DNA of 48,772 nt. Source: a virus. The stretch covers positions 1-48,772 of IMG/VR virus record IMGVR_UViG_3300043436_000835. One strand, 5' to 3'. Shown here piece by piece: positions 3,796 through 48,772 of this stretch (the stretch's first letter is position 1; each line of letters opens with the position of its first letter). The position numbers were made by a program, and so were the translations under genes. The notes below the pieces were generated by a model. That model was not told where the DNA came from and did no database searches. It was given only the letters and a program-made list of their open reading frames with translations.

Positions 3796-4332
3796 ATGAA
3801 AGCCCGAGACGTAAATCGTGCAGCCGAAAATGATTTTTCACCGTTTGAGGACTGGCAGATTCTTGAGCTCTACAACAGTATGTCACCACGCAAGCTGACT
3901 GGATTCATGGACCGCCGAGCCATGGAGCGCCGCACCCAAGACTTGCTCGACGTCCGTGGCCTTATGCTTTACCACCAGAACAACGGTGGAGCACAGTATC
4001 AAGTCGCTGGTATTTGGATCTACCGGGCCGAGGCCCACCCGACCAACGTCTACGCTCTGGGCTATGTTCACAGGGACAGCAATCGCATCATCCGCCTGCT
4101 GATTGACCACAACCCGAAGTCTGGTGCCTCTCGTGACAGGTTCGCTTTCTACCGTGATGGTATGACTGTTTACGAATACCGCGTCGCATGTAGAGATCTC
4201 CAAGGCGGTGACGCATGGGGTAAGTCCGAATCAGACATCGACCATGACGTTAAGAAGGGCTTTATCCGCATTGAAATCAATGCTGACCAAGAACTAGCCG
4301 ATCACGCTAGAGAAACTATACTTCAGCGGTGA
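3796..4332 (+). CDS. Protein with an NPK-DRF-DGMT domain, unknown function (178 aa)
   Basis: This is one of only three rightward genes in the window. The C-terminal half holds a motif series also found at the end of the leftward protein at 14652-15347: NPKSGASRDRFAFYRDGMTV followed by DIDHDVKKGFIRIE here, and NPKRAGSASYDRFAMYDDGMT followed by DIAWDIRKGFIEVVE there (each shown in part). Comparable NPKRxGSxSxxRF segments occur in other phage proteins, with no known role. The N-terminal half is helical, then beta. A CGGAGAG lies nine bases before the ATG. The last 17 bases overlap the end of the DNA polymerase gene on the other strand. Confidence 0.75.
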   Translation: MKARDVNRAAENDFSPFEDWQILELYNSMSPRKLTGFMDRRAMERRTQDLLDVRGLMLYHQNNGGAQYQVAGIWIYRAEAHPTNVYALGYVHRDSNRIIRLLIDHNPKSGASRDRFAFYRDGMTVYEYRVACRDLQGGDAWGKSESDIDHDVKKGFIRIEINADQELADHARETILQR

Positions 4333-6313
4333 TCTTAGCCACAGCCTCATTCCAGGTTGCTCCATACTCACCTTTGGCCTTTGCCGAGCCCCAGTTGGGA
4401 CCGAACTCAGCGTCTACGATAACAGGAACTTCCAGCTTCACGGTGTCACGCATAAGCTCCTCGGCGCGCTTGGCATCTTTCTCACTGGAGAAACTAAAGT
4501 CAAGCTCGTCGTGCATCTGCAACAGGGGCAGCAGACCCTCGCGCCAGCAAGCACGCATGGATAGCTTGGTCATACGTGCCGCAGAGCCTTGGATCAACCA
4601 GTTCATAGCTTTGTGGGTGAAAGCCCTACGCAGCGCCCCGGACCAAGGGTGGTCAGGGTCGTGGATGCGAGACATAGCCTCATCCCTAGAACAAGGGGCG
4701 AGGGGCTTGCCACTGGCCTGAGCCAGCTTATAGTCTACCCAGCGCGGCTCCCAGCGCTCAAAACGGGCACGGGCACCGTCGAGCAGACGGATGTATCCGC
4801 GGTTAGATCCAACAGTCTGCACATATTCCGACAAACGCTTGACGAACGGCGCTTCATCGTCATACTGCTTCATTGTGGCAGCAGCTTCCTCTAGGGACAT
4901 ACCTGTCATCAGCGCAAACTTGGGCACCCCAGCCCCGAAAGCCTTAGCGAAGTTGACGTCTTTGGCGCGGCGGCGCGGCAGACCAGTCAGTTCTGCCACC
5001 ATAGAGTGGAAGTCGGTGCGGGCATTCTCGCGGTACATCGCCACAGGTTTTTCAGCACCAGCCACACGGCACAGCGATGCGAAGTGTACGATCAGTCTGT
5101 ACTCTTGCTGCGAATAGTCAAGCGCACCCCACACCTCCCCGCTCTCTGGCTCGAAGCACCCACGGATCTCGTCAGCAATTTCGGGGTCGCGGGAGGGCAT
5201 CTGTTGGAGTGGTGGATCGCTGTAGGCAAAGCGTGACGTTTTGGTGCCGCCACGATCGTTCTTAAACTGGTGGATTTCTGCGTGCAGGCGACCACGGTGC
5301 GCGTAGTCTAACAGATAACCCTGCACAAACTTGTTCCCGGCGTCGTGCATCTTGTGGGCACGGGCCACCAACTGAGGCAACCAATGGTCCATCTTGCTCA
5401 TCCAGTCAGCTTCGAAGGAGTCATTACCCTTCTCTGTGCTGGGGATTTGGATACCTTCACTCCGGAATACGTTGCTGAGGAACTTTTTGGAGTTCACATC
5501 ATCAATGCTTACGTTACGGCCGATACTTAGTTTGCGCCCCAACTCGGCAAGGGCCTCGTCGCGTTTACCAAGGAGGCTGTCGCGCACCTGAGCAGCCTTC
5601 TTTGTGTTGAAGCGCACACCCCTCCGCCGCATAGCGATGACCATTGGAATAAGTTCGCGCTCAAGGTTGTAGGCATCAACCACATCTTGCCCAACGAGTT
5701 GCGGCATGAACTTCTCAAACAGACCCAAGGTGCTGACTGCGTCTTTATCGGCATAGGGGCCGACGTATTTGGCAGGTAGCTTCCAGAGCTCACCTTTGGG
5801 GTCGTAGCCGAAAGCCTTGGCGGCATCGCGCAAGAGTGTTTCGTCCTTGCCGGGGAGACCTTGCCACTTGCACAGACTGTCTAGGTTGTAGGCGAGGCGT
5901 TGCTCGTCGAGCATATAAGCCATTGCCATCGTATCGTGGAAGTCGGGCCGCACCCGCAGGTCAAGGTCAGCGGTAATCCAACCAACGTCATACGATGCGT
6001 TCTGAAAGACTATCTTGTCTTTCTCGCTGTCAAGATGGTCCTGGAGCCAGCGGCGCACGGCCTCACGGTCAAAGTTGCTGGTCTCAGGGTGGCGCAGTGG
6101 AACATAGATGCTCCCTCGCTTAGAAGCCACACTCACCCCAGCCACGTATCCCGCCTTGTAGACCCACCCGGCACCCCGACTGTTCGCAAGACCATCGTCA
6201 CGAGTCTCAGTATCAATTGCAATAACCCCCGCCCCTCGCAGGTCGGGGAGTTCGGTAGGCTCCCGCCACGTGGTAGGCGGGAGCATGAAGTCCATGGGAA
6301 GTTGTCCTGACAT
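4316..6313 (-). CDS. Family A DNA polymerase with 3'-5' exonuclease (665 aa)
   Basis: The N-terminal exonuclease keeps its catalytic set: D34 and E36 in AIDTET, N105 and D109 in QNASYDVGW, and Y187/D191 in YADKD. The polymerase domain shows motif A DYSQQEYR (399-406), motif B RRRAKDVNFAKAFG (447-460) and motif C MHDELDF near residue 600. There is no 5'-3' exonuclease domain, as in T7-like and many phage enzymes. The residue matching E. coli Phe762 is Phe455, and the one matching Tyr766 is Phe459. It is the replicative polymerase, the last gene of the operon that begins at 10454. The start overlaps the upstream stop (TGATG). Confidence 0.96.
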   Translation of the reverse strand: MSGQLPMDFMLPPTTWREPTELPDLRGAGVIAIDTETRDDGLANSRGAGWVYKAGYVAGVSVASKRGSIYVPLRHPETSNFDREAVRRWLQDHLDSEKDKIVFQNASYDVGWITADLDLRVRPDFHDTMAMAYMLDEQRLAYNLDSLCKWQGLPGKDETLLRDAAKAFGYDPKGELWKLPAKYVGPYADKDAVSTLGLFEKFMPQLVGQDVVDAYNLERELIPMVIAMRRRGVRFNTKKAAQVRDSLLGKRDEALAELGRKLSIGRNVSIDDVNSKKFLSNVFRSEGIQIPSTEKGNDSFEADWMSKMDHWLPQLVARAHKMHDAGNKFVQGYLLDYAHRGRLHAEIHQFKNDRGGTKTSRFAYSDPPLQQMPSRDPEIADEIRGCFEPESGEVWGALDYSQQEYRLIVHFASLCRVAGAEKPVAMYRENARTDFHSMVAELTGLPRRRAKDVNFAKAFGAGVPKFALMTGMSLEEAAATMKQYDDEAPFVKRLSEYVQTVGSNRGYIRLLDGARARFERWEPRWVDYKLAQASGKPLAPCSRDEAMSRIHDPDHPWSGALRRAFTHKAMNWLIQGSAARMTKLSMRACWREGLLPLLQMHDELDFSFSSEKDAKRAEELMRDTVKLEVPVIVDAEFGPNWGSAKAKGEYGATWNEAVAKITAEV

Positions 6314-6699
6314 CAGATATCCATCTGCGGGTCGTAGCCGTGGCCCGCTGGATACTCAGCTTTGGCCCGACGTTCACCGCGAACATACTGTTTCATGGCG
6401 CGAGTCTCGGTGTCTTCAATCGAAGGTTCCTTTGCCAGACGCTTGCGCACACGGTCTGCGCTCAGCTTGGAGTATCCAGCCATGTCGTCCCAGTGGTCAG
6501 CCACGTTTGGGTTCCCAGTGACCACGCGCCCCATCTTGTGTGCAATCATGTGCAGTGTTTCCTTCTGGTCAGCAGTCAGGCTGATCCAGTTGCGGTGTGA
6601 CATCAGTATAAACATGATGTCTTGGGTACACAGAGCATGTTCGGTATAGTCTCCGTGGGTCTTAGCACGTTCGGCCAAGATTTTGTCGATGTCACTCAT
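6313..6699 (-). CDS. DUF6378-like protein (128 aa)
   Basis: The N-terminal ILAERAKTHGDYTEHALC and the later LHMIAHKMGRVVTGNP with DHWDDMAGY agree with the DUF6378 family of phage proteins as I recall it (ERxxTHGD at the start, then a helix with HKxxR and DHWxDxxGY). The layout of acidic helices recalls MazG-type nucleotide hydrolases, so a role in nucleotide metabolism is a guess. It sits between the HD nucleotidase and the polymerase, with ATGA-type overlaps on both sides. Confidence 0.7.
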   Translation of the reverse strand: MSDIDKILAERAKTHGDYTEHALCTQDIMFILMSHRNWISLTADQKETLHMIAHKMGRVVTGNPNVADHWDDMAGYSKLSADRVRKRLAKEPSIEDTETRAMKQYVRGERRAKAEYPAGHGYDPQMDI

Positions 6700-7196
6700 C
6701 TGCTGAAGGTCTCCGTAAAGTGGCGGGAAAGGGTCATGTCTTCAAGAGGTGAATCGCACATGGATAGTGCGACCAGCTTTGTTCGGTCGATAATGGGGAT
6801 GGCGAGATTGTTGCCTTTCAGATACTCCTCCATACCGTACTCCCACATTTCAACAAGATCACAAATCTTGATGCAGCGGATCTCATTCTCAGTGAGTTTG
6901 CTCGTTGTATCATACGGAAGCAGAATCTCGCGGTGCGCAGCCTCAACGCGGTCGTAAGCTGCCTTGAGGTCGGGGTTTTCACGCTTGACGGGGAAAGGTG
7001 CATCGCCAGTTTTGATCTCACCAACGTCATGATACATGATTGCGAGTGTGACATCCGTGGACGGCGGACCAAACAGCTTGTGATAGATACGCAGAACGTG
7101 CCACGTATGTTCCGCGTTTGTTTGTTCACGGAGCACGGGCCAAGTATGATACCTCTTGACCAGCCCAGCAAAACGCAAACTCTTTGTAACGTCCAT
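6696..7196 (-). CDS. HD-domain nucleotidase, YfbR-like (166 aa)
   Basis: The metal-binding HD set is visible: AEHTWHVLRIYH near residue 29 and MYHDVGEIKTGDAPFPVKR near residue 55, which closely follows the HDASEVLTGDLPTPVKY-type segment of E. coli YfbR, a dNMP 5'-nucleotidase. A later D within ICDLVEMWEY completes the set. It likely strips phosphate from a deoxynucleotide. In modified-base phages, HD or other nucleotidases remove the normal nucleotide from the pool; here the gene follows the thymidylate-synthase homologue, sharing a TGATG junction. The real substrate cannot be read from sequence. Confidence 0.85.
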   Translation of the reverse strand: MDVTKSLRFAGLVKRYHTWPVLREQTNAEHTWHVLRIYHKLFGPPSTDVTLAIMYHDVGEIKTGDAPFPVKRENPDLKAAYDRVEAAHREILLPYDTTSKLTENEIRCIKICDLVEMWEYGMEEYLKGNNLAIPIIDRTKLVALSMCDSPLEDMTLSRHFTETFSR

Positions 7197-8188
7197 CACT
7201 TTGCCATTCTCCGATTCATCCAGTCAGTTGCAGCCATGCGCCAGTCGTGGGCCTGGACTTCCTGAACAGCACGCAAGGCACCAGTGCGGTCGCCACTCTT
7301 CCACAGAGCATGAGTTTTCCACATCGGCCGCGCAACGTAAAGGAACCAGCCGTTCTCGTAGACAATAGCTTCTGGATTGCCCATGAATTTCTTGAGGTCA
7401 GCATCCCACTTACTCCAGTTCTCACCAATTGCTGTGGTGCGGGGATAAATGGTCAGTGGGTCGCGCTGGAAGCGGTCAGCAACGCTATCGTAAAGGTGCC
7501 AGTTGTTGCTGAGTTGGTAATACTTACCAACCTTGACACCGATCCTGCCAGCTAGATATTCCTGCAAGAAGCTGAAGTGAACAGCGTTGGCACCGTAGGC
7601 TCCCCAGACTACATCGTTTGAGCGGCAGGTGACTGTGATGTCGAGTGCGCCACCAACAATCCGCGGATAAAGGACTGTGTTGCACGGAACATCGCGTGGC
7701 TCTTCAAATGGTATACCTGTTTCGTCGTCAATATCGGTGACGGGATCAACGTAGTCATTCATGGCATCCCACATCTGAATGACCACCCTGCGGTCGTTGG
7801 GATTAGTGACTAGTCGATTGACTGTGACATCGAGTTGGTCAAAGCCGAACCAACGCCGCCAACGATTACCGTAGGCACCCCAGATCATACCCATCTTATC
7901 AGGCTCACCGTAACGTGCTGAGAAATCACTCACGAAGCGGTCTAGCCACACACCCTCGTTACTGCCGGAGAGCATCCACAGGCATTCGAACAGGTGGAAG
8001 AAAGGGTTAGCATCGCGGTGGCGGTTGAACAAGACACGTTCCCACGGACGCTCGTAAACGGTCATTACAGGGTGCGGAGCTACACTCACACCCCCGTTGC
8101 GCGAATTGGATTTGACACCAACACGTTCCATCTGAATGACTGCCTTATCAAAAGCGTCATTGACATTATCTGCGTAGATTGTCAGCAT
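7196..8188 (-). CDS. Thymidylate synthase homologue, possible dUMP hydroxymethylase (330 aa)
   Basis: The ThyA fold is recognisable through FFHLFECLWMLSG (Glu68), GAYGNRWRRW, DRRVVIQMW with the phosphate-binding Arg pair (133-134), the catalytic Cys169 in VPCNT, RSND (189-192), Asn201 in GANAVHF and HLY (231-233). Asn201 matches the residue that selects dUMP; dCMP hydroxymethylase of T4 has Asp there. Differences from ThyA are marked: Cys is followed by Asn and not His, one extra residue precedes Asn201, and the part after HLY is about 97 residues with no APVAV-like closing tail. Loss of that tail fits an enzyme making a hydroxymethyl product. A plain thymidylate synthase remains possible. 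The leader CCAGCAAGAGAGG precedes the ATG. Confidence 0.85.
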   Translation of the reverse strand: MLTIYADNVNDAFDKAVIQMERVGVKSNSRNGGVSVAPHPVMTVYERPWERVLFNRHRDANPFFHLFECLWMLSGSNEGVWLDRFVSDFSARYGEPDKMGMIWGAYGNRWRRWFGFDQLDVTVNRLVTNPNDRRVVIQMWDAMNDYVDPVTDIDDETGIPFEEPRDVPCNTVLYPRIVGGALDITVTCRSNDVVWGAYGANAVHFSFLQEYLAGRIGVKVGKYYQLSNNWHLYDSVADRFQRDPLTIYPRTTAIGENWSKWDADLKKFMGNPEAIVYENGWFLYVARPMWKTHALWKSGDRTGALRAVQEVQAHDWRMAATDWMNRRMAK

Positions 8189-8493
8189 AGCTTGCCTCTC
8201 TTGCTGGAAAGAGTTGTTCTCGCCCCATACGTCGTTTCGACGTGGACCTGAGAAAAGTTGTAGATGTCTTCTGCTTTGCGTGCAGCCTCAGTATTCAGCC
8301 GCACTGCGTCGGGGTCGTCGGAGATTACGTCCCTTAAATATACCACCAGAAGGTGCGCACAGACTAGCGTGTTAAGTGCGCAGAGACCGTTGTCTTTGGA
8401 GATAATAGACAACAGAGCAAGTAAATCATTACCTGATCTGATGACTGCTTGGTCACTGCTACATTCGCAAGATGGGTGTTTCTGGTCATCCAC
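8182..8493 (-). CDS. Helical hypothetical protein in the nucleotide operon (103 aa)
   Basis: No ATG suits this frame; the GTG at 8493 has AAGG nine bases upstream and is preferred over a TTG at 8499. The middle (LLALLSIISKDNGLCALNTLVCAHLLVVYL) is hydrophobic but reads as packed helices with charged breaks and not as clear membrane spans. No family is recognised. It overlaps the glycosyltransferase gene upstream by 8 bases and the thymidylate-synthase homologue downstream by 7, so it is in the same transcript and may act in the same pathway. Confidence 0.65.
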   Translation of the reverse strand: MDDQKHPSCECSSDQAVIRSGNDLLALLSIISKDNGLCALNTLVCAHLLVVYLRDVISDDPDAVRLNTEAARKAEDIYNFSQVHVETTYGARTTLSSKRGKLC

Positions 8494-9295
8494 GCCCAAA
8501 TGCCTTTTTCCAGTAGATAGTTACCTCGGTACGTGTGCCAAACTCACCACCAGTCTTGTTGACTTTCTGGCGGAGTTTGACATAGGGGTCATGTAGCTCG
8601 GCCAGTTTGTGCGCCGCTTGCTCGTGCAATTGGTGTGTGCGATATGTGCTGCACCCACCCGGAGCGTTAGTCATCTTTTGATCCTGGGACCACCAACCAA
8701 GGTTCACGTTCGGTAGCCCCATGCGGAGGAGTTGCAGGTTGACGTCAAAGTCTTCCATGACGGGGACGCGCCCGTGCTGGGCCTTGAGGAAGTCTTTAGT
8801 GCGATAGCACAGCACGCGGAGGGTGCGTGTATTCTCCTCAACAACTGCGTGCCATGCGCCGACACCCATGTTGTTATTCCCCTGACGCGCAGAGATTCCA
8901 ACATGAGCATATCCGTCCAAACTTGATGCCACGTAGTCCCACATATGGTCTGTGTCGCTTGTATTGCACTTCACAAGCCCTGTAGCTGATGCCGAAGCCC
9001 TGCGGACAAATCTTACATCGTCATCAACCATAGCAAACTTACCCTCCCCGCCTTCTGCGCAATGTACGCCGATCCAGTGGCGTGTTGCAGCAATCCCAAG
9101 GGCGGGGGATGGAATTACACTTACCCCTTCGGCAATCAAGCCAGTCTGCTCGAGAGTTTCGTGGTATGCGGAGAGCTGGTCTGGTGGCACAACGTAAACG
9201 GTCCTGGAGCGTATAACGTCTGAAAAGTCAGCCACAGGGCCAATAAGAATGTTCTCAGCTTTGGAGCGGCTGGCACTTGGGATGTAGATTTTCAT
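8486..9295 (-). CDS. Glycosyltransferase of the TET-associated (TAGT) type (269 aa)
   Basis: The start MKIYIPSASR, a strand with VYVVPPDQLSAYHE, then GIAATRHWI and KFAMVDDDVRFVRR (Asp91-93) follow the order of TET-associated glycosyltransferases, a GT-A-like group predicted to put sugars on oxidised or hydroxymethylated DNA bases in phages. A later EDFDVNLQLLRMG (near 183-195) supplies an acidic pair that could be catalytic. In this operon the sugar acceptor would be a base made by the thymidylate-synthase homologue. No TET dioxygenase is visible in the window. The start overlaps the upstream stop (ATGA). Glycosylation of a cell-surface sugar is the alternative. Confidence 0.75.
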   Translation of the reverse strand: MKIYIPSASRSKAENILIGPVADFSDVIRSRTVYVVPPDQLSAYHETLEQTGLIAEGVSVIPSPALGIAATRHWIGVHCAEGGEGKFAMVDDDVRFVRRASASATGLVKCNTSDTDHMWDYVASSLDGYAHVGISARQGNNNMGVGAWHAVVEENTRTLRVLCYRTKDFLKAQHGRVPVMEDFDVNLQLLRMGLPNVNLGWWSQDQKMTNAPGGCSTYRTHQLHEQAAHKLAELHDPYVKLRQKVNKTGGEFGTRTEVTIYWKKAFGRG

Positions 9296-10035
9296 TTGTT
9301 TTTCCTCTCGATGTCATCCTCAGAGCAGAGTTGACCGAACTGCATTTCGCGCACAACAGCATCGGCACCTCTGGCGCGAATCTGGTGCCATACTCCTTTT
9401 GGAACAACACAATACTCACCTTCGAACATGACCATGCGATCTTGGCCAATCTCGGCAACAACCACCCCTTTCTCTACAAACCAGATTTCGTTGCGGTAAA
9501 GGTGGCGTTGATAACTGGTTTCTTCGTCTTGATCGATGTAGAGGGTTTTGAAAACACACTTCTGGTTACGGAAGTGATCTTCGTAGTGCCCCCACAGACG
9601 CTCAACGCGCGCGATGTAGGCTTTCGGTGTGATAACGCTGCTGGAATTAGTCTTGTCAGTTCCACCAACGCCGTAAACCATCTGCACATTGTCTACAGAT
9701 TCTTCTGGAACGTTACCACGACCCCGGTCCCCACCATTGAAAAACAGGACGGTGTCTTCCTCAGCTACATGTTCACGAATATCGATCAAGCTTTGTACGA
9801 CAGTATTGTCTGCGTCTTTTGCAGCTATAACGTCAGAGTCTCGCACAATAGCCGAAACGACCTCGATGCGCTGTTCAAGTGGAACAGACACGTAACCTTT
9901 CTTGCGAATCAACCACTCATCTGTGTTGACTAGAACGATAAGTTCATCACACATAGACTCTGCGGCAATAAGCATTCTCGCGTGCCCTGCGTGCAGTGGA
10001 TCAAAGCCTCCACTGACTACACCAATAGTTTTCAT
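9292..10035 (-). CDS. Nucleotidyltransferase-cupin fusion (247 aa)
   Basis: Residues 1 to about 140 are a cytidylyltransferase-like domain with GGFDPLHAGH (9-18), the HxGH nucleotide-binding motif of the RfaE/TagD/CoaD superfamily, and a later SSSVITPKAY in place of the usual ISSTxIR. Residues about 165 to 240 are a cupin (VEKGVVVAEIG, PKGVWHQIRA) like the C-terminal part of mannose-6-phosphate isomerase/ManC proteins. It probably joins a nucleotide to a phosphorylated sugar or alcohol. Placed directly before the glycosyltransferase, it could make its donor. The missing SSTxIR residues mean the activity is uncertain. ATGA overlaps tie it to both neighbours. Confidence 0.82.
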   Translation of the reverse strand: MKTIGVVSGGFDPLHAGHARMLIAAESMCDELIVLVNTDEWLIRKKGYVSVPLEQRIEVVSAIVRDSDVIAAKDADNTVVQSLIDIREHVAEEDTVLFFNGGDRGRGNVPEESVDNVQMVYGVGGTDKTNSSSVITPKAYIARVERLWGHYEDHFRNQKCVFKTLYIDQDEETSYQRHLYRNEIWFVEKGVVVAEIGQDRMVMFEGEYCVVPKGVWHQIRARGADAVVREMQFGQLCSEDDIERKNK

Positions 10036-10454
10036 GCTGCCTCCTTACTTGGCCAGACGTAATCGTAGACAGGATCTTCGTCCCAACCGAACTGCGAATA
10101 CCACTCAAAGTCTTTGAACAGCAGTGCAGCCCGGTGCGACGCGTGAAACTTATCACAACCTAACCACGGAGGCATGTCGATGTCAAGAAAATAAGGTGTT
10201 TTGGGGTCTAGCATGAGTGGCATATTGTTCTCAAAGCCACGGCGGATCCACTCGCGAATGCAGGCGTCTGTGTAGGCCATGAGGGCAGTTACGTGGCCCT
10301 CCCACATGCGCGTAGCTGGATGGTTAGCCCACCCTCCCCCGCTCTGCAGAGCATTCTGGATTTGCCGACCCTCAACACGCTGTTTACCAAGGCGCTTATT
10401 ATCAAGACACATAGCTGACGCTACGAAGTTGGGATATGGAAGGAATGTCTGCAT
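10032..10454 (-). CDS. Pyrimidine-dimer glycosylase-like protein (DenV/MSMEG_6728 type, 140 aa)
   Basis: The opening MQTFLPYPNFVASAMCLDNKRLGKQRVEG is the signature of the T4 endonuclease V-like family (Pyr_excise and the related MSMEG_6728 group), where the residues after the initial Met form the active site and DxxRLGKQRVE is a strongly kept helix. Later WANHPATRMWEGHVTAL and SHRAALL also fit. Family members remove UV dimers with a DNA glycosylase/lyase action. As first gene of the modification operon it could instead act on an unusual base. The promoter element at 10477-10491 and a CAGCAACAGGAGA leader lie upstream. Confidence 0.8.
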   Translation of the reverse strand: MQTFLPYPNFVASAMCLDNKRLGKQRVEGRQIQNALQSGGGWANHPATRMWEGHVTALMAYTDACIREWIRRGFENNMPLMLDPKTPYFLDIDMPPWLGCDKFHASHRAALLFKDFEWYSQFGWDEDPVYDYVWPSKEAA

Positions 10455-10476
10455 GTTTTCTCCTGTTGCTGGAATA

Positions 10477-10491
10477 AGTATACCGCAGGAA
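10477..10491 (-). promoter_or_regulatory. Promoter-like element, site 3
   Basis: The minus strand reads TTCCTGCGGTATACT, with TATACT as a good -10 hexamer. The ATG of the DenV-like gene is 22 bases downstream, with TTCCAGCAACAGGAGA between. The only other copy with GCGGTATACT is at 20353-20367 on the other strand. It would drive the whole operon 4316-10454. No -35 hexamer is evident at the usual distance. Confidence 0.7.
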
Positions 10492-10522
10492 CGGGGGTGG
10501 GACTATGCTCCCAAGCCTTCGT

Positions 10523-10729
10523 TCATCTTGCTGTTGTGGTTGATGTAGGCTTCGGTTCCATTACACCATAAGCCTCGTCTTTTATTCTGTCTATCTCGGC
10601 CTTGTTTTGTTTGGCCATATACTCGATCAGCTCGAACTGTTCCTGAGTCACCCACCAGCCCGGTAGCTTGCGATAGCCTTTCAGCTTCAAGGCCCTCGCT
10701 CCGGGGCTGTTGCTGGCATCACGGGGCAT
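10523..10729 (-). CDS. Small helical protein (68 aa)
   Basis: The ATG at 10729 has GAGG six bases upstream and overlaps the end of the upstream gene by 11 bases. The core (KGYRKLPGWWVTQEQFELIE) followed by a charged helix (YMAKQNKAEIDRIKDE) looks like a small DNA- or protein-binding fold found in phages; I do not recognise a named family. The tail PKPTSTTTAR is probably disordered. It is the last gene before the promoter at 10477. Confidence 0.6.
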   Translation of the reverse strand: MPRDASNSPGARALKLKGYRKLPGWWVTQEQFELIEYMAKQNKAEIDRIKDEAYGVMEPKPTSTTTAR

Positions 10730-11162
10730 CGCTTCCCTCAATCTCGGCCAGCAGGGCGCGGGCAATGTCGCAAAGGTTCTGCACATCGGGAGGTGCTTCG
10801 CCGCTAGGCGTCACCCATTCTTTCTCCGCAAACCCCGCAATCTCCCGCAGCCCCTCCACCGCCTTCGCCAGTTTGGTTTCGACATCATCATGTATCTTCG
10901 TCACTTTGAGCAATGCTTGGAAAGTTTTTCTGCGTTCCTCTTCCACGAAGGCCACCCGCTTCTCCAACACATCAACGCTGTGCCTTGCGCTGTCCCATTG
11001 GTTTAGGGCTTCGAGTTGCTCGGTCAGGGCTTCGATCTTCTCCCCGTTGATAACGTCGAGATCGTCCATAAGTTTGACCTTGGCGGTCAGGGCTTCGATG
11101 CGGTCGGCGGCTTCGCCCCACTTCTCGTAACGCAGCGCGTTGCACAGTGCTTCGTCAGTCAT
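10719..11162 (-). CDS. Coiled-coil hypothetical protein (147 aa)
   Basis: The second of two adjacent ATGs is chosen because it is six bases from a GGAGG. Residues about 10 to 115 are heptad-like (ADRIEALTAKVKLMDDLD, then KIEALTEQLEALNQWDSA), so a long coiled coil is expected. The C-terminal segment (PPDVQNLCDIARALLAEIEG) is typical of small phage proteins of this kind. No catalytic motif is visible. The gene overlaps the HTH gene upstream by 8 bases. Confidence 0.65.
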   Translation of the reverse strand: MTDEALCNALRYEKWGEAADRIEALTAKVKLMDDLDVINGEKIEALTEQLEALNQWDSARHSVDVLEKRVAFVEEERRKTFQALLKVTKIHDDVETKLAKAVEGLREIAGFAEKEWVTPSGEAPPDVQNLCDIARALLAEIEGSDAP

Positions 11163-11337
11163 CATCCACCTCCATCATCTGCTTCATCAACGCTGGCACC
11201 TTGCGCCACTTGTAGAGGCTGGCTGGCGAAACGTCATAAAGAGCCGCAGCCCTCTTTACTCCGAAGCGCGCGGCAGAGCGCAGGGCCTCAACGCGAAGCT
11301 CGTCCGTCAGGCCGTAGTCTGGGTGGAAGTGGGTCAT
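11155..11337 (-). CDS. Small HTH protein (60 aa)
   Basis: The ATG at 11337 overlaps the stop of the upstream gene (ATGA). ELRVEALRSAARFGVKRAAA followed by LYDVSPASLYKWRKVPALM has the shape of a homeodomain-like helix-turn-helix, as in transposase N-termini and small phage regulators, with the recognition helix at SPASLYKWRK. It may regulate phage or host promoters. The longer reading frame upstream is antisense-like and is not supported. Confidence 0.65.
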   Translation of the reverse strand: MTHFHPDYGLTDELRVEALRSAARFGVKRAAALYDVSPASLYKWRKVPALMKQMMEVDDD

Positions 11338-11696
11338 GTCAACATCTCCTCTAGTCTGAGTCCAATGACCCGTTGTTCCAGTGGTCCGTAAAGCGGGGAG
11401 GGTAGCCAACACCACTCGTACCCTGCGTGTGACTGCCAAAGCGCGCCGCTGGAGGGCCTTGTTTGCCACAGCACCGCCAGCACCGCCAAGCCCACCATGA
11501 CCACTCGACGGCCCGCCCACGCGCTCGCTTGGGCCTCGTAGCTTTGGCGGGCGGCAAGCTGCCCAGTGACCCACAAATCTACATGCTCAAACCTGCGCTC
11601 AAAGTCCTCAAAGGTGACGGCGCAAACCTCGTGCGCCGCCTGCCAGAGAACTTGCATGTCAGCACTTTTCTTACTGACTACAAGATGTTTACGCAT
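11334..11696 (-). CDS. Membrane protein with one central span (120 aa)
   Basis: The ATG at 11696 overlaps the upstream stop and has GGAG nine bases before it. Residues 1 to about 55 are a soluble helical part (DMQVLWQAAHEVCAVTFEDF). A hydrophobic stretch VVMVGLAVLAVLW gives one likely membrane span, followed by about 40 residues rich in Trp, Gly and Pro. Its place between a GHKL-like ATPase and an HTH protein in one operon is unusual. No family is recognised. Confidence 0.6.
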   Translation of the reverse strand: MRKHLVVSKKSADMQVLWQAAHEVCAVTFEDFERRFEHVDLWVTGQLAARQSYEAQASAWAGRRVVMVGLAVLAVLWQTRPSSGALWQSHAGYEWCWLPSPLYGPLEQRVIGLRLEEMLT

Positions 11697-12846
11697 CAGT
11701 GGGTGCTCCGGCAATGGCCGACACCAAACGGTTCAGCAGGAAAGTCTGCATCGCGCGGGTATTGTCCTGCAACTTGTGGCGCTTGTGGAGCCACTCTTCG
11801 TAAAGAACAATCGCAGCATAGCGGTCACCTTGGCGAAGTGCCTCGCGGCACACGAAAATTTGATCACGTTCCTTGTGATACAATCCCATGACGTTTGGCC
11901 CAAGGGTCTCAGTTACCTGCACCTCATACAGGTCGAGGTCGCACTCCATGTACTCCAACAAGGAAAAGGCTTCGCGCAGCGTGTTGGACTCATCGGGTGT
12001 TGGTGTGTGTTCGGGCCAAATACCGTCACGCTGGTCACCCTGTTCCACCATGCGGCGCACATTCTGCGACACATTTGCATCGTTGCGGAAGCGCCGCGCC
12101 ACATCCATGAACACGTCGGACGGTGCAGCACAGTACGTGAAGTTGAGGTTTTGGTCCCAAGTATCGTGACCACTAATCAAAGCGTGTGCGATACGCTCAC
12201 TCTTAGTTGTAGGTAGCTTGGTTTCCAGCAGGTATTCCAGTGACCACATGCTCGCTAGGGTGCGGTCCTCGGTAAGTTCCATAGTCTTGGTGATGTTGTA
12301 AGTGAAGCTGCACTTCTCGGGCAACTGAGCCACACGCACGCCGCGATAGTAGATATAAGAGCTTGGTTGCGGGTGAACCTCGACACCATCGAGAACTTCC
12401 AGTGGCTTGCTGTTAAGGAAAATCTGATGACGTGATTCAAAGGCACGTTGGGCCTCAGGGCCTTGGACCACGAACACAGTGTCGGCGGTGGTAGGCTTGT
12501 CGGTAATTACACCAGACTCATCAAGGGTGTTGGAGTGCAGTTCGCGGTATGCCTGCCAAACCTCCCAGTTCCTGCCAAGGTCGGTGGTGAAAGGTAGAGG
12601 CTCACCATTCATGTAGACTTGGTTGAAGCTGCGCTCACGCACAGTCACTTCGCGTGCGTTGAAGGTATACGTTTCTCCACCAGTGAATAAGGATACGTGG
12701 TGCCCGGTGCGAAGCAGCGTTGCAATGGCGAACTTGAGGCCAGTGCCAAAATAGCCGATAGGTGTGTCAGTGTTCTTGACACTAACCCCCATGACGCGAA
12801 TAACACTAAGGTCAATCTCGCCAGCGTTAGCGAAGTAGATAGGCAT
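11689..12846 (-). CDS. GHKL-like ATPase with a C-terminal EExxH segment (385 aa)
   Basis: The ATG at 12846 follows an AGGAGA leader. Near residues 31-46 the protein has IGYFGTGLKFAIATLL, which looks like the glycine-rich ATP-lid box of the Hsp90/gyrase/histidine-kinase (GHKL) fold. A canonical N-box and DxGxG box are not evident, so nucleotide binding is inferred. The last 45 residues hold LYEEWLHKRHKLQDNTRAMQ, a helix with E-E-x-x-H that recalls a zinc metallopeptidase helix. The middle is beta-rich and cannot be assigned. The pairing could be a conflict-type effector or a chaperone-like protein. Confidence 0.6.
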   Translation of the reverse strand: MPIYFANAGEIDLSVIRVMGVSVKNTDTPIGYFGTGLKFAIATLLRTGHHVSLFTGGETYTFNAREVTVRERSFNQVYMNGEPLPFTTDLGRNWEVWQAYRELHSNTLDESGVITDKPTTADTVFVVQGPEAQRAFESRHQIFLNSKPLEVLDGVEVHPQPSSYIYYRGVRVAQLPEKCSFTYNITKTMELTEDRTLASMWSLEYLLETKLPTTKSERIAHALISGHDTWDQNLNFTYCAAPSDVFMDVARRFRNDANVSQNVRRMVEQGDQRDGIWPEHTPTPDESNTLREAFSLLEYMECDLDLYEVQVTETLGPNVMGLYHKERDQIFVCREALRQGDRYAAIVLYEEWLHKRHKLQDNTRAMQTFLLNRLVSAIAGAPTDA

Positions 12847-12876
12847 GTGGATAGTCTCCTGTGTTGCTGTAAACCT

Positions 12877-12891
12877 ACTATAGCTTACGAA
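12877..12891 (-). promoter_or_regulatory. Promoter-like element, site 4
   Basis: The minus strand reads TTCGTAAGCTATAGT, a looser copy of the repeated element with TATAGT as the -10-like part. ACAGCAACACAGGAGA follows and the ATG of the GHKL-like gene is 30 bases downstream. It lies in the 64-base gap 12847-12910 and would drive the genes down to 10523. Confidence 0.6.
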
Positions 12892-12910
12892 CAACACAGT
12901 GGACTAGCCG

Positions 12911-13360
12911 TCAACGTGCGGATTGGGGTCCACGCTCTTGGTTCTGGTATTTGCCACGATACGGTGAGTCAGTCACTTGGTCCAAACTGTGGAACAAGAT
13001 TTGAGCGACTGGAGTGCCTTCCGGCAAAACCAAGCCACCCCTCGTGTGGTTTGTCAACTCGAGGGTAAGGTATCCGCACCAGCCCGGTTCTATCACAGTG
13101 TTCTGCACTGCCAGACCGCGCCGCGCCCACGTGGACTTATCGTGGACGATACCAACAACATCATCTGGCATCATGAAGTATTCAAAAGTAGACGCCAGCT
13201 TGAAGTCACCCGGCTCCAGAATTACCTCTTGGTCAAGGCGAACGTCATACCCACAGGCACTCAGGCCAAAGGTGGTCCCGGTTTCGGGGTGCAAGGTGCG
13301 CTCCACGAACGGGGAGACTGGCTTGATGTAGCGTAGAGTCTGTGCGCTTAGGACTGTCAC
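12911..13360 (-). CDS. dcd: dCTP deaminase/dUTPase-family protein (149 aa)
   Basis: SACGYDVRLDQEV (near 34), HDKSTWARRGLAVQNTVIEPGW (near 73, quoted in part), CGYLTLEL with the catalytic Glu, and GTPVAQILFHSL are the ordered motifs of dCTP deaminases, and the end YRGKYQNQ is typical of that branch. The protein is shorter than E. coli Dcd (about 193 residues). It would turn dCTP into dUTP, or dUMP if bifunctional, and so feed the thymidylate-synthase homologue. The gene overlaps the next upstream gene by 4 bases. Pure dUTPase activity is the alternative. Confidence 0.88.
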   Translation of the reverse strand: MTVLSAQTLRYIKPVSPFVERTLHPETGTTFGLSACGYDVRLDQEVILEPGDFKLASTFEYFMMPDDVVGIVHDKSTWARRGLAVQNTVIEPGWCGYLTLELTNHTRGGLVLPEGTPVAQILFHSLDQVTDSPYRGKYQNQERGPQSAR

Positions 13361-13647
13361 AGTCGACCCTCCCGCATTGCCAGACGGATCTCGTCACGAC
13401 TACCGTGCTTGACTTTGCCGCCCTTGATTATCTGCCACTTGTTCGCACTCGGCCAGTATTGAGCAACAGCCTTCGTGTTCTTGTAGATGTTCCAGTGGCG
13501 TTCTGACATGACTTGGATAGTGTAGCCTCCGGCCTCTGCGGCCACTACAAATCCCTGCCACTCTTCTTGTGCAGCGACCAGAGCATCAAGGCGTGACTCT
13601 TTCTTATGCTCTTTCATTGCTTTCCAGATGTCGACAATCTCAGACAT
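13357..13647 (-). CDS. Hypothetical protein (96 aa)
   Basis: The ATG at 13647 overlaps the end of the hypermodification-family gene by 8 bases. A charged helix (EIVDIWKAMKEHKKESRLDAL) is followed by a beta-rich half with GGYTIQVMSERHWNIYK and YWPSANKWQIIKGGKVKHG, a pattern I associate with small phage proteins near replication genes but cannot name. The coupling to genes for nucleotide metabolism suggests a linked role; this is inference. Confidence 0.65.
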   Translation of the reverse strand: MSEIVDIWKAMKEHKKESRLDALVAAQEEWQGFVVAAEAGGYTIQVMSERHWNIYKNTKAVAQYWPSANKWQIIKGGKVKHGSRDEIRLAMREGRL

Positions 13648-14518
13648 GTGGGTATACCCCGCGCGGACGACCCTGACCCAAGCGCGCCCTCTCGTATTTG
13701 TCAAACTCACAGAGTGTGTGCTCGACGTCACGCATCTCTAACGGTGCCCAGTAGGTTGGCCAGTTTTCAGGGTCTTTAGAGGCTTCAAGAACCTCACGCA
13801 TCTCACAGACGAAGAGATGCTTGTGCTGCTTCTTCTCAAGCTCGCGCCCGTGCAGGCGGTTCAGGCCGCGCATGGCTCCGGGACCGGGATTGGCCCACGT
13901 CCCGATGTCAGTCGCGTTAACGAGCAAATGAGTCCAGCGGAGATCAGTCACCAACTCATAGCTCGTGAAGTCAGCAATGTGGTTCACTTTGCGGAACTGT
14001 TCCCACGAATGCTCAAGGGTCTGGTGTGTTAGAATCTCGTCGACAAACTCCACGCGGCGCTCCCACACCCACTGGATCATCTGGAGCACGCCGCGCAGCT
14101 TGTCCATACCATTCGGGCTGTTGATGATATACGATCCGGTGCAATACGGACCCTTCCCACAGTATATGCGGATAGGTGCCTCCATAGCAAACGCATCACC
14201 ATCGCGCAAGAATTGCTCAAAGGGCGTAGAGTTGCCGAACGAGCATTGGTTGAAAATAGCCTCCCCCGTGATGTTCCTGTTGAACAAACGGAAGACAACC
14301 GTTGCCATCATCGTTGCGATGTGGTCGTCCTCGTAACGGTGGCGAGCGTTCTTGGCAAACCAGAGGGTCACATTGTCCAGTTCCCGATATACGTTCGTAA
14401 AGCGGAAGTGGTGGAGAATGGGGTCCGTGGTCCAGGGAGCGGGGAGCTTTTGCTCGTGGCGGCGTAGATAGATCTTGTGCCGCTCTTTAGCGAAGTTGAA
14501 GAATGGTGTCGGGTTCAT
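13640..14518 (-). CDS. aGPT-pyrophosphorylase/HMUDK-helical family protein, putative DNA base hypermodification (292 aa)
   Basis: The run PWTTDPILHHFRFTNVYREL (29-47) with D48, and VVFRLFNRNITGEAI (74-88), match the helical, DNA-glycosylase-like domain shared by 5-hydroxymethyl-dU DNA kinases and alpha-glutamyl/putrescinyl-thymine pyrophosphorylases, families proposed by comparative genomics to finish thymine hypermodification in phages. No P-loop kinase part is fused, so the pyrophosphorylase-like branch is more likely. YCTGSYIINSPNGMDKL is another kept segment. It should act on 5-hydroxymethyl-dU in DNA. The start at 14518 has GAGG seven bases upstream, and its roughly 90-base leader carries a strong hairpin. 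Confidence 0.78.
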   Translation of the reverse strand: MNPTPFFNFAKERHKIYLRRHEQKLPAPWTTDPILHHFRFTNVYRELDNVTLWFAKNARHRYEDDHIATMMATVVFRLFNRNITGEAIFNQCSFGNSTPFEQFLRDGDAFAMEAPIRIYCGKGPYCTGSYIINSPNGMDKLRGVLQMIQWVWERRVEFVDEILTHQTLEHSWEQFRKVNHIADFTSYELVTDLRWTHLLVNATDIGTWANPGPGAMRGLNRLHGRELEKKQHKHLFVCEMREVLEASKDPENWPTYWAPLEMRDVEHTLCEFDKYERARLGQGRPRGVYPHV

Positions 14519-14539
14519 GTGATCGCCTCGAATGTTGAT

Positions 14540-14567
14540 GGTCCTCGCGCTGTGACACGCGAGGACC
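14540..14567 (-). promoter_or_regulatory. Strong hairpin in the leader of the hypermodification gene
   Basis: GGTCCTCGCG (14540-14549) pairs perfectly with CGCGAGGACC (14558-14567) around an eight-base loop. It lies between the promoter-like element at 14615-14629 and the start codon at 14518, with no T-run, so it is more likely to shape the leader RNA than to end transcription. Most leaders in this phage are only 20 to 50 bases long and lack such a structure. Confidence 0.7.
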
Positions 14568-14614
14568 CCTCCAGCAACAGAGGTTTTGCGCGGCGACCAA
14601 ACCTGCGCATGTGA

Positions 14615-14629
14615 ATAATAGCGCAGGAA
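14615..14629 (-). promoter_or_regulatory. Promoter-like element, site 5
   Basis: The minus strand reads TTCCTGCGCTATTAT, one of the best copies of the repeated element. TATTAT serves as the -10-like hexamer. The start codon of the hypermodification-family gene is 96 bases downstream, the longest leader of the set. The element lies in the 133-base non-coding gap 14519-14651. Confidence 0.7.
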
Positions 14630-14651
14630 AAGCCGCTCGCGCAAGCCCTCA

Positions 14652-15347
14652 TTATTCCACCACTTCGATGAAGCCTTTGCGGATGTCCCAAGCAATATCG
14701 TCGGTTTTGACACCCTTTTCGATAGCGGAACCGATAGTCATGCCGTCGTCATACATGGCGAAACGGTCATACGACGCCGAGCCAGCACGTTTCGGGTTGT
14801 TCTCGGGACCATACTTGACGCCTTCAGCATTCGAAAGAAGGCGAATCTTGTGCTCGCGATTATAGCGTTCCGCTTTGGGCGCTGCGGCTTCACCTTCAGC
14901 TTTCACCTTCTTAGCCTTGGGGGCTGCGGTGGACTCAGTGGCGGCGGTGGTCGGGGCTTCTGCTTCCATCTTTTTAGACTCCTGAATGGAAAGTTTGCGA
15001 TCACGAATGATCAGTTGAACAAGCTCTGCGGGATCCTTGGGTGCAGGATGGGCTTTCTCCACAAACGCAGTCCAGACAACCTTTGCATACTCATCCACGC
15101 GGCGGAGGCGTTGTGGATGGGTGGGTGCGTCAAGGCACGACTGAAGTGTGTCTGCCAGCTCAGAACGCCCAATTCTACGCAAGATACGTGGAATCTCTGT
15201 GAGCGTAAGTCTGCTGGAGATTTTCTTTGGCCCGTCGATAATGCGGTCACCATATTGGATTAAGGGATGAGTATCGGCCTCAGTAAACGTGCTGAAAGCC
15301 CATAGTTCGCCTTGTCCGTCACGTGTGATGGCTACGCATCCTGTCAC
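14652..15347 (-). CDS. Two-part protein ending in an NPKR-DRF-DGMT domain (231 aa)
   Basis: Residues 1 to about 120 are a folded domain of unknown family (WAFSTFTEADTHPLIQYGD, then TLTEIPRILRRIG). A linker rich in Ala, Glu and Lys follows (about 125-160). The last 70 residues carry KIRLLSNAEG, NPKRAGSASYDRFAMYDDGM and DIAWDIRKGFIEV, the same domain as in the rightward gene 3796-4332. The start is a GTG at 15347 with GGGGA seven bases upstream. The linker suggests a tether between a binding domain and the NPKR domain. No enzyme motif is visible. Confidence 0.72.
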   Translation of the reverse strand: MTGCVAITRDGQGELWAFSTFTEADTHPLIQYGDRIIDGPKKISSRLTLTEIPRILRRIGRSELADTLQSCLDAPTHPQRLRRVDEYAKVVWTAFVEKAHPAPKDPAELVQLIIRDRKLSIQESKKMEAEAPTTAATESTAAPKAKKVKAEGEAAAPKAERYNREHKIRLLSNAEGVKYGPENNPKRAGSASYDRFAMYDDGMTIGSAIEKGVKTDDIAWDIRKGFIEVVE

Positions 15348-20393: not shown

Positions 20394-20585
20394 ATGCGAG
20401 AAGTCATCGACCTAAGCGTCCAGAAGCTGCATGAGACCGAGAAAGCATACCTTGTAACTGACTCAATTCCGGAGAAAGGTGTGTGGATTGCAAAGAGCCA
20501 GTGCGAGCTTGATGAGAGTTCAACAAAAGGAATCTATACACTCACACTTCCGGAGTGGTTGGCCCAAGAAAAAGGGTTGATTTGA
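20394..20585 (+). CDS. Small hypothetical protein before the SNF2-like helicase (63 aa)
   Basis: A clean AGGAGA lies eight bases before the ATG. The protein reads as a small beta-rich domain (KAYLVTDSIPEKGVWIAKSQ, then YTLTLPEWLAQEKG). Its stop overlaps the helicase start (TGATG), so the two are translated together and may work together. Short proteins of this sort with a V-W-I/L-P pattern occur before helicase genes in other phages. No function is known to me. Confidence 0.7.
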   Translation: MREVIDLSVQKLHETEKAYLVTDSIPEKGVWIAKSQCELDESSTKGIYTLTLPEWLAQEKGLI

Positions 20586-22039
20586 TGACCTACGAGTTTA
20601 AGACCAAACCATACACCCACCAGAAGCAAGCTCTCAAGGAAGCCAGAGGGCGGGAGGCTTTCGCTTACCTTATGGAGATGGGTACAGGTAAGACCAAGGT
20701 GGCTGTGGATGAGATCGGTATATCATACCTAGACGGATTGTTGGATGCTGTTCTTGTGGTGGCACCCAAGGGTGTCTATGCAAACTGGACCAACATCGAA
20801 ATACCGACACACATGCCTGATGATTTAGTGCGTTCCGCTGCCATCTACCTGTGGGACGGCATGGGAACAAAGCGCAGCCAGAACCTTGCAGAGCGGTGCA
20901 TGACCCACAAGGGTTTGAGTATCTTGGTTATGAACACCGAGGCATTTAGCTCAAGCAAGAAAGCTATTGACTTTGCCACCAAATATCTCAAGAGTCGGCG
21001 CGCAGCGATATTCATCGACGAAAGCACGCTAATCAAGAACCATTCGTCAGCAAGGACCAAGGCCCTCGTACGTTTGTCACCTCTGGCAAAATTCCGTAGG
21101 ATTATGACTGGCTCACCCGTGACACGCAGCCCGCTGGACTTCTTTGCACAGTTCCAGTTCCTCAAAGCTGGGTTGTTAGGTACGAGTAACTGGTTCGCCT
21201 TCAGGTCACGCTACGCCATCCTTGAACAAAAAGTGTTCGGTGGCAGAAGTGTGCTGACAGTATCTGGCTACCAGAATCTACCAGATTTAACTGAGCGTGT
21301 TCGTAACCACAGCTTCCGTGTTCTCAAAGAGGACTGCTTGGACCTCCCACCGAAAGTGTTTATCCGTAGAGAGGTTGACCTTACCGAAGAACAAGCTAAA
21401 GCCTATGCACAGATGCGCGATGAAGCATTTGCCGAACTAGAGAATGAACAGTTCGCAAGCGCCACAGCAGTCATCACACAAATCATGCGCCTCCACCAGA
21501 TTGTGTGTGGCCATGTGACCAATGCCGATGGTGAGTTAGTCCGCATCCCCAGCAAACGGGTGGACTCTTTGCTTGAGCTAAGTGAGGAACTCACAGGTAA
21601 AACAATCGTCTGGGCACGTTACCGCGAAGATATACGGTCAATTTGCGCCGCACTGCGCGATGTATACGGGGACAGGGCTGTGGTTGAGTATCACGGTGGA
21701 ACAAGAACCGAGGAACGTGCATCTGCCGTGGAAAGGTTCCAGAAAGATCCAACCTGTTTGTTCTTTGTGGCCAACCAGTCTACCGGAGGCTACGGTATCA
21801 CACTCACGGCAGCGTCTAACGTGGTCTACTACTCTAACGATTATGACCTTGAGAAACGCTTGCAGTCCGAGGACCGCGCCCACCGCTCAGGGCAAACCAA
21901 GAGTGTCACCTATGTTGATTTGGTGGCCCCCGGCACCGTTGATGACAAGATTATCGAAGCGCTCATCAATAAGAAGAACATTGCGGATCTTGTCACCGGA
22001 GACGGTGCTCGGGGGTGGTTCGCTAACCGAGAAGTTTAG
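20585..22039 (+). CDS. SNF2-like SF2 helicase/ATPase (484 aa)
   Basis: YTHQKQAL near residue 10 (Q-like motif), MEMGTGKTKVAVDE (about 30-43, Walker A), IFIDESTLIKN (Walker B as DEST), MTGSPVTRSP (III), then C-terminal TIVWARYREDI, TGGYGITLTAASNVVYYS (V) and EDRAHRSGQTKSVTYVDL (VI) form a full SNF2-type motor. Phage relatives remodel or unwind DNA, with roles in replication restart or recombination. The first ATG (20585) follows the upstream stop. The last 17 bases overlap the endolysin gene on the opposite strand. Confidence 0.94.
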   Translation: MTYEFKTKPYTHQKQALKEARGREAFAYLMEMGTGKTKVAVDEIGISYLDGLLDAVLVVAPKGVYANWTNIEIPTHMPDDLVRSAAIYLWDGMGTKRSQNLAERCMTHKGLSILVMNTEAFSSSKKAIDFATKYLKSRRAAIFIDESTLIKNHSSARTKALVRLSPLAKFRRIMTGSPVTRSPLDFFAQFQFLKAGLLGTSNWFAFRSRYAILEQKVFGGRSVLTVSGYQNLPDLTERVRNHSFRVLKEDCLDLPPKVFIRREVDLTEEQAKAYAQMRDEAFAELENEQFASATAVITQIMRLHQIVCGHVTNADGELVRIPSKRVDSLLELSEELTGKTIVWARYREDIRSICAALRDVYGDRAVVEYHGGTRTEERASAVERFQKDPTCLFFVANQSTGGYGITLTAASNVVYYSNDYDLEKRLQSEDRAHRSGQTKSVTYVDLVAPGTVDDKIIEALINKKNIADLVTGDGARGWFANREV

Positions 22040-48417: not shown

Positions 48418-48772
48418 CAGATATCCTCCAGCCAACCAAATAGACCTGCGGAAATGTCAGCACCTTTGTCGCAAGATGCTACAAACCCCACCCACTCGCC
48501 AGCAGGTATAGCGATAGGGCTTGACATACCAAGAGTTACAGTATTGTCTTGCAGAACAACAGCAGCATATGTGAGCAAATACCCAGAATCAGCAAAGCTG
48601 TCGCCATTGAAAAAAGATGCAACGAGTTCGACGTTTGCTTTCGCGGCACTTGTTCCGCTTGTGCTGCCCGCATATACAGAATGAACAATCAGGCGCTTGC
48701 CAGCAGGAACACGGCGCATCGCTGCGTCAAACTTGATGGATCCTGCGGGAATGAGGGCATACGTTGCCCCTC
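48417..48772 (-). CDS. Structural-region protein, cut by the window edge (partial, at least 118 aa)
   Basis: The frame is open through the right edge, and the residues before the first Met (TYALIPAGSIKFDAAM) read like real protein, so the true start is outside. The visible part is beta-rich with AGKRLIVHSVYAGSTSGT, LVASFFNGDSFADSG, AIPAGEWVGFVASC. It looks like a small head or virion protein. It ends in the TGATG junction with the protease gene. Confidence 0.7.
   Translation of the reverse strand, partial: GATYALIPAGSIKFDAAMRRVPAGKRLIVHSVYAGSTSGTSAAKANVELVASFFNGDSFADSGYLLTYAAVVLQDNTVTLGMSSPIAIPAGEWVGFVASCDKGADISAGLFGWLEDI

Follow-up and report, generated by a model that had tools for sequence, protein, structure and literature searches.

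The window analysed here, 48,772 nucleotides long, is the whole of a 48.8 kb record of a bacterial virus (IMG/VR IMGVR_UViG_3300043436_000835). It carries a group of genes that probably replaces thymine with 5-hydroxymethyl-2'-deoxyuridine (5-hmdU) and then adds a sugar to the modified base. A first-pass annotation had assigned six genes to a pyrimidine modification pathway. All six open reading frames (ORFs) are present, all lie on the minus strand, and all score above the curated cut-offs in a Pfam profile search:

6696..7199, minus strand: HD YfbR-like 5'-deoxynucleotidase (PF12917, 43.2 bits, cut-off 25.9; YfbR, 2.3e-6)
7196..8188, minus strand: thymidylate synthase (TS) homologue, 330 residues, a predicted dUMP hydroxymethylase (PF00303 Thymidylat_synt, 57.5 bits, cut-off 24.3; PHROG_5131, 3e-89)
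8486..9295, minus strand: TAGT glycosyltransferase, 269 residues, predicted to glycosylate 5-hmdU in DNA (PF20691, 56.0 bits, cut-off 27.5)
9292..10035, minus strand: nucleotidyltransferase (NTase)-cupin fusion, 247 residues, a candidate maker of an activated sugar or polyol (PF01467 CTP_transf_like, 43.7 bits, cut-off 21; PF01050 MannoseP_isomer cupin, 49.3 bits, cut-off 23.6)
12911..13360, minus strand: dCTP deaminase-like (DCD) protein, 149 residues, a candidate supplier of dUTP or dUMP (PF22769, 80.1 bits, cut-off 27)
13640..14518, minus strand: HMUDK_hel helical protein, the predicted partner that recognises 5-hmdU in DNA (PF18723, 155.9 bits, cut-off 25); its ATG, at 14518, lies within a longer ORF, 13640-14713

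The proposal that these genes form two operons finds no support, since they share one strand and since many relatives have the helical-protein, TAGT and TS genes as immediate neighbours.

The residues of the TS homologue predict a dUMP hydroxymethylase. In an alignment with E. coli ThyA (EcTS numbering), T4 gp42 and SPO1 gp29, it keeps the equivalents of the catalytic, phosphate and folate residues C146, R126, R127, R166, S167, D169, H207, Y209 and E58, and it has an aspartate at position 143 (motif DVPC), three residues ahead of the catalytic Cys146, and an asparagine at position 177. An aspartate in the former place is a proposed hydroxymethylase signature that would activate water (PMC6400193), and asparagine or aspartate at residue 177 corresponds to a uracil or a cytosine substrate, respectively (PMC8670742); it is these two residues together that point to hydroxymethylation of dUMP. 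Both D143 and N177 are found in 148 of 148 TSs checked from TAGT, kinase and other loci, and N177 in all 85 of those from TAGT loci. Among phage proteins it is most similar to the TSs of phages of the Pseudomonas phage M6 type, several of which are deposited as 'thymidylate synthase/deoxyuridylate hydroxymethyltransferase'. SPO1 gp29, deposited as a dUMP hydroxymethylase, shares Asn177, Asp143 and the motif RSND..WG..GAN, a comparison that covers the TS. The route from dUMP to 5-hydroxymethyl-dUMP given in the first-pass annotation is therefore supported, by the TS residues as well as by the M6-type relatives.

These residues also bear on the possibility that the locus serves ordinary nucleotide metabolism, with the TS homologue yielding dTMP and TAGT modifying virion or host glycans. 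ThyA is frequent in phages, and GT-A enzymes have diverse roles. However, the window TS has Asp instead of Leu at 143, no Trp aligned at position 80, and N147; it falls in a family with the SPO1 dUMP hydroxymethylase and the M6 TS, and the locus is steadily linked to a DNA family named for 5-hmdU. We give this explanation the least credence of all.

The AlphaFold2 model of TAGT (predicted local distance difference test score (pLDDT) 94.3) is clearly placed in the GT-A fold by a Foldseek search (E 2e-6 at a probability of 1.0), and within its sequence a DDD motif at residues 91-93 is invariant and an EDFD motif is conserved. We predict that it is a metal-dependent GT-A enzyme that transfers a sugar to 5-hmdU in DNA; the earlier view of it as the likely decorating enzyme is supported. 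The association with TET/JBP gave the family its name and is no requirement for membership, and nearly all TAGT relatives carry TS in place of TET/JBP. A search for Tet_JBP in the window gave no match, although the control genomes gave none either and the control is thus uninformative. The role of TAGTs that occur without alpha- or beta-glucosyltransferases was called open in 2026 (PMC13216743).

An alternative acceptor is cytosine, in which case the TS would make 5-hydroxymethyl-dCMP and TAGT would glycosylate 5-hydroxymethylcytosine (5-hmC), as does the second-sugar TAGT of T6. The T-even TAGT indeed acts on glucosylated 5-hmC (PMC13216743), PHROG_842 bears the name beta-glucosyl-HMC-alpha-glucosyltransferase, and the solved structure nearest to the window TS is MilA, a CMP 5-hydroxymethylase. 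Against this stand the Asn, not Asp, at residue 177 in the window and in 85 of 85 TSs of TAGT loci, the naming of HMUDK_hel after 5-hmdU kinases, and the lack of any match to alpha- or beta-glucosyltransferase families among the window proteins scanned. We rejected the cytosine route on residue 177 and hold it to be highly improbable.

HMUDK_hel is 37% identical to gp55 of phage M6 (3e-44), which is adjoined by gp54, the P-loop 5-hmdU DNA kinase (PF18748). The first-pass label of aGPT-pyrophosphorylase/HMUDK holds for the helical part, which is of clade 1 and resembles M6 gp55, whereas the P-loop kinase is not there: PF18748 has no match in the window even at an E value of 10, and a search with M6 gp54 finds no homologue in it. 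Similarly, tblastn with M6 gp51-gp53 returned no homologues in the window or its close relatives, and thus no counterpart in the window of the AADT (aGPT-Pplase2), pyridoxal phosphate (PLP) and radical S-adenosylmethionine (SAM) enzymes of the M6-type pathway; gp51 we take to be the amino-acid:DNA transferase (AADT). The AlphaFold2 model of HMUDK_hel is all-helical (pLDDT 95.7), and its best resemblances in the PDB are weak throughout (E from 0.4 upwards). Ranked by probability, helix-hairpin-helix DNA glycosylases and the human queuine salvage enzyme (DUF2419) come first, which hints at a base-flipping fold. At the sequence level, neither HMUDK_hel nor TAGT gave a useful match among PDB chains.

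To place this gene content among other viruses, three IMG/VR scans were made with HMUDK_hel, TAGT and the kinase as queries, each of 80 loci typed by profile hidden Markov models (HMMs). Kinases were typed with a model built from six kinases, a more sensitive test because the PF18748 model falls under its own cut-off on the Ab18 kinase. In the TAGT-centred scan, HMUDK_hel is present in 71 of 80 loci and upstream of TAGT in 65, and TS lies downstream of TAGT in every locus that has it (76 of 76). The usual gene order is HMUDK_hel, TAGT, TS, often with the genes overlapping or a few bases apart. The HMUDK_hel-centred scan contains 11 loci with the kinase, 12 with TAGT and none with both; in the kinase-centred scan, 55 loci have the kinase together with HMUDK_hel, and TAGT occurs in 0 of these 55. 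A pooled Fisher test (p about 1e-10) was set aside, as the loci had been gathered by TAGT and by kinase and the value is inflated; it is the counts of the separate scans that give a fair picture. In a phylogeny of 116 HMUDK_hel proteins the kinase and TAGT labels require at least 10 changes, and an independent-pairs test on the starred branches goes in the right direction with only six pairs (p 0.03-0.25). The missing kinase, the retained helical partner and the near-exclusive pairing of the latter with either kinase or TAGT had all been left out of the first-pass annotation.

These observations also bear on an M6-type amino-acid hypermodification, in which phosphorylation of 5-hmdU in DNA would be followed by displacement by an amino acid, with TAGT and NTase-cupin being unrelated or adding an extra decoration. 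The TS, HD, HMUDK_hel and PolA genes are all homologous to M6 genes, as that explanation would have it. But neither the P-loop kinase nor gp51-gp53 homologues were found in the window, in its closest relative (IMG/VR contig 3300033067_000415, G001; TS 66%, TAGT 79%, HMUDK_hel 79%) or in G002, and in relatives TAGT adjoins HMUDK_hel. Because the window lacks the kinase while keeping its helical partner, and because a kinase and a TAGT hardly ever occur together beside that partner, we consider this chemistry very unlikely here.

Other enzymes alternate beside HMUDK_hel as well. Among 53 HMUDK_hel loci with TS and with neither kinase nor TAGT, a SAM methyltransferase (PF13489) lies immediately upstream in 40; five (L071, L075, L077, L081 and L083) carry an FkbM methyltransferase together with a glycosyltransferase-1-like (GT-B-like) protein; and in one (L101) HMUDK_hel and TS are separated by an NTase-cupin, a radical SAM enzyme and a GT-B-like protein. 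The SAM methyltransferase loci (L103, L068 and about 40 in all) possibly encode a methoxymethyl-uracil pathway. With kinase, TAGT and other enzymes alternating next to it, HMUDK_hel looks like a fixed part to which an exchangeable catalyst is joined. In the five FkbM loci as in L101, the GT-B-like set occupies the position that separates HMUDK_hel from TS.

Two small genes near the window's HMUDK_hel have relatives that keep similar company. The minus-strand gene at 11334-11714 encodes a small protein 32% similar to a 151-residue protein of L055 (IMG/VR contig 3300010316_000010, the next closest virus; HMUDK_hel 69%), whose own likeness to the uracil-DNA-glycosylase superfamily is weak (PF03167, E 0.096, with an IPHPSG motif); relatives adjoin HMUDK_hel in about 10 loci, of kinase and TAGT types alike. 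The minus-strand gene at 10032-10454, within the cassette, belongs to the pyrimidine dimer DNA glycosylase family (PF03013, 80.7 bits), and similar proteins (clusters T12 and T32) are neighbours of HMUDK_hel in some 30 TAGT loci.

Phage M6 modifies thymines in TG and TC, and its resistant restriction sites are enriched in these dinucleotides (PMC6449724). Should TAGT and kinase phages modify T by way of one shared helical protein, palindromes with TG or TC would be expected to be less avoided in both. We therefore compared palindromes containing TG or TC with those having T only in TA or TT, using loci with a G+C of 0.45-0.75, dereplicated at 75% identity in HMUDK_hel, and against a GC-matched background of 52 virus loci. 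The median ratio of the first class to the second is 1.37 in TAGT phages and 1.34 in kinase phages, compared with 1.02 in the background (p = 6e-4 and 3e-3), and the sparing of TG/TC is strong above a G+C of 0.55. Non-palindromic hexamers show no such contrast. We treat this signal as indirect, exploratory support for modification of T. The contrast between GC-only and T-containing palindromes was rejected as stand-alone evidence, as unmodified lambda shows the same. Six-base palindromes are strongly avoided in the window overall (361 observed against about 640 expected), and GGCGCC, CCCGGG, GCCGGC, GGGCCC, GTGCAC and GCATGC are absent from it.

From these results we consider it likely that the locus encodes a two-stage pathway in which thymine is replaced by 5-hmdU, which is then glycosylated by TAGT under the guidance of HMUDK_hel. 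The first stage, which we infer from residues, would begin with hydroxymethylation of dUMP by the TS homologue to 5-hydroxymethyl-dUMP, the DCD-like protein being a partial source of dUMP and the YfbR-like nucleotidase clearing competing dTMP; incorporation of 5-hmdU into DNA would then fall to kinases of the host and the family A polymerase of the phage. In the second stage, which we infer from co-occurrence, swapping and fold, HMUDK_hel would recognise, and probably flip, 5-hmdU in TG and TC and hand it to a catalytic partner, TAGT here and the kinase in M6-type phages. The NTase-cupin would help to make a nucleotide donor, and TAGT would move the sugar of this donor onto the base; the resulting 5-(glycosyloxymethyl)-dU, a chemical analogue of base J, may protect T-containing sites against host nucleases. 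On a wider reading, about which we are evenly divided, HMUDK_hel is a general base-presenting adaptor for 5-hmdU that prefers TG/TC and takes interchangeable catalysts (P-loop kinase, TAGT, GT-B-like protein, SAM methyltransferase), and the product of the TAGT branch, the window phage included, is glycosylated 5-hmdU, in effect a base J of phages.

Several observations weigh against the two-stage pathway. In the G+C bin of the window (0.45-0.55) the ratio of TG/TC to TA/TT palindromes is only a trend (p = 0.065), and the window's own values of 0.45 for GC-only palindromes without T, 0.63 for the TG/TC class and 0.49 for the TA/TT class lie merely in the expected direction. A distant TAGT occurs in 2 of 20 whole kinase records, and one of the 80 TAGT-centred loci (L142) has a weak kinase match. 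The HMUDK_hel fold matches DNA glycosylases only weakly (E 0.37), and the NTase-cupin is not conserved in most relatives. The kinase may also lie in a missing part of the record. No direct terminal repeat is found at the window ends and neither terminase nor portal among the window proteins scanned, so the record is probably an incomplete fragment; at its right end (46750-48772) it stops just past a ChaB/S78 protease fusion. However, PF18748 is likewise without a match in 21 of 21 whole TAGT records, most of them longer than 50 kb. Lastly, HMUDK_hel was not found in the TAGT phages ctUhy936 (complete, 40 kb), L188 and L160/L161/L167, and TAGT may therefore not need it.

The phage ctUhy936 and a few loci, which have TS and TAGT but no HMUDK_hel, and the weak likeness of the HMUDK_hel model to OGG/AlkA glycosylases would also fit TAGT glycosylating 5-hmdU alone, with HMUDK_hel as a separate linked enzyme such as a 5-hmU-specific DNA glycosylase-like or repair protein. 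We think this unlikely, given that HMUDK_hel is present in 71 of 80 TAGT loci, mostly as a direct neighbour, that kinase and TAGT have replaced one another beside it at least 10 times, and that the TG/TC sparing common to kinase and TAGT phages fits a single shared recognition protein.

The glycosylation of 5-hmdU by TAGT with HMUDK_hel would combine features of several known systems. Like the thymidine hypermodification locus of M6, the window has a homologous dUMP-hydroxymethylase-type TS, HD protein, HMUDK_hel and PolA in the same neighbourhood, but in place of the P-loop kinase and gp51-gp53 homologues it has TAGT and the NTase-cupin. With the T-even phages that glucosylate 5-hmC (including the TAGT of T6) it shares a PF20691 TAGT, the GT-A fold and a hydroxymethyl-pyrimidine as starting base; unlike them, its predicted acceptor is 5-hmdU (TS Asn177), no alpha- or beta-glucosyltransferase was found among the proteins scanned, and HMUDK_hel is present. 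The predicted product, O-glycosylated 5-hydroxymethyluracil in DNA, matches the base J of kinetoplastids (trypanosomes), which JBP1/2 and then a glucosyltransferase form from T oxidised in DNA. In the window, by contrast, 5-hmdU is predicted to arise at the nucleotide stage through the TS homologue before incorporation, and the transferase is of the phage TAGT family (with no Tet/JBP match, the control being uninformative).

Closest in content among deposited phages are Brevibacterium phage LuckyBarnes, in which TS (gp41), two TAGTs and the helical protein follow one another (HMUDK_hel is gp38, directly after the two TAGTs), and ctUhy936 (MW202897), which has a TS and TAGT cassette. Within the GenBank phage set only these two hold TAGT relatives detectable with the window query. 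Unlike the window, neither has a detectable NTase-cupin, nor was HMUDK_hel found in ctUhy936, and their annotations stop at glycosyltransferase and thymidylate synthase or pyrimidine hydroxymethylase. As the combination of TS and TAGT is present in these deposited phages and common in IMG/VR, it is not unique to the window, and the suggestion that it marks a new route finds no support. Glycosylated 5-hmdU was unreported in phages as of 2019 (PMC6449724), and we found no later report in the open-access literature, a coverage that leaves out most subscription journals.

If correct, the pathway would be a phage counterpart of base J. The cassette ties the large group of solitary TAGTs to a dUMP-hydroxymethylase-type TS and to the helical half of the 5-hmdU kinase, and it offers a concrete product to seek, an isolated phage (LuckyBarnes, obtained on a cultured host) in which to test it, and a mechanism by which phages exchange base decorations. 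Should the helical protein set the choice of site, it could become a reusable tool for addressing 5-hmdU in DNA, and if the adaptor view is true, one thymine-modification chassis serves many chemistries.

The remaining cassette genes speak to the supply of nucleotides and of the donor sugar. The NTase part of the fusion resembles glycerol-3-phosphate and ethanolamine-phosphate cytidylyltransferases, and its cupin is of the mannose-phosphate isomerase type; the same fusion adjoins the helical protein and the GT-B-like protein in L101. Where it is missing, relatives have a cupin alone (G001), an NAD-dependent epimerase (in four loci) or a stand-alone cytidylyltransferase-like gene (in 22), and the donor sugar probably varies between them. 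The YfbR-like HD gene adjoins TS in the same place in M6, Pam3 and ctUhy936, and the TS-HD-PolA neighbourhood recurs in M6, Ab18 and Pam3. The DCD-like protein has KSTxAR and LTLE motifs that match solved dCTP deaminases, and homologues in G001 (88%) and L055; the deamination step named in the first-pass annotation is thus plausible, although outside the window its gene was seen in just a few close relatives. Two further genes of this neighbourhood are:

4316..6313, minus strand: family A DNA polymerase, which would incorporate the modified nucleotide (PHROG_17, 3e-98)
6313..6699, minus strand: DUF6378-like protein, present in some of these cassettes (PF19905, 25.6 bits, slightly below the cut-off of 27.1; relatives in cluster T37)

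Named phages include no near relative of the window at the DNA level, and PADLOC gives zero matches on it. A 402-residue PHROG_8203 protein of unknown function (11689-12897, minus strand) is syntenic in G001 (85%) and L055, and a SNF2-type helicase-like ORF (20555-22039) is on the plus strand, opposite by eye to almost all other genes.

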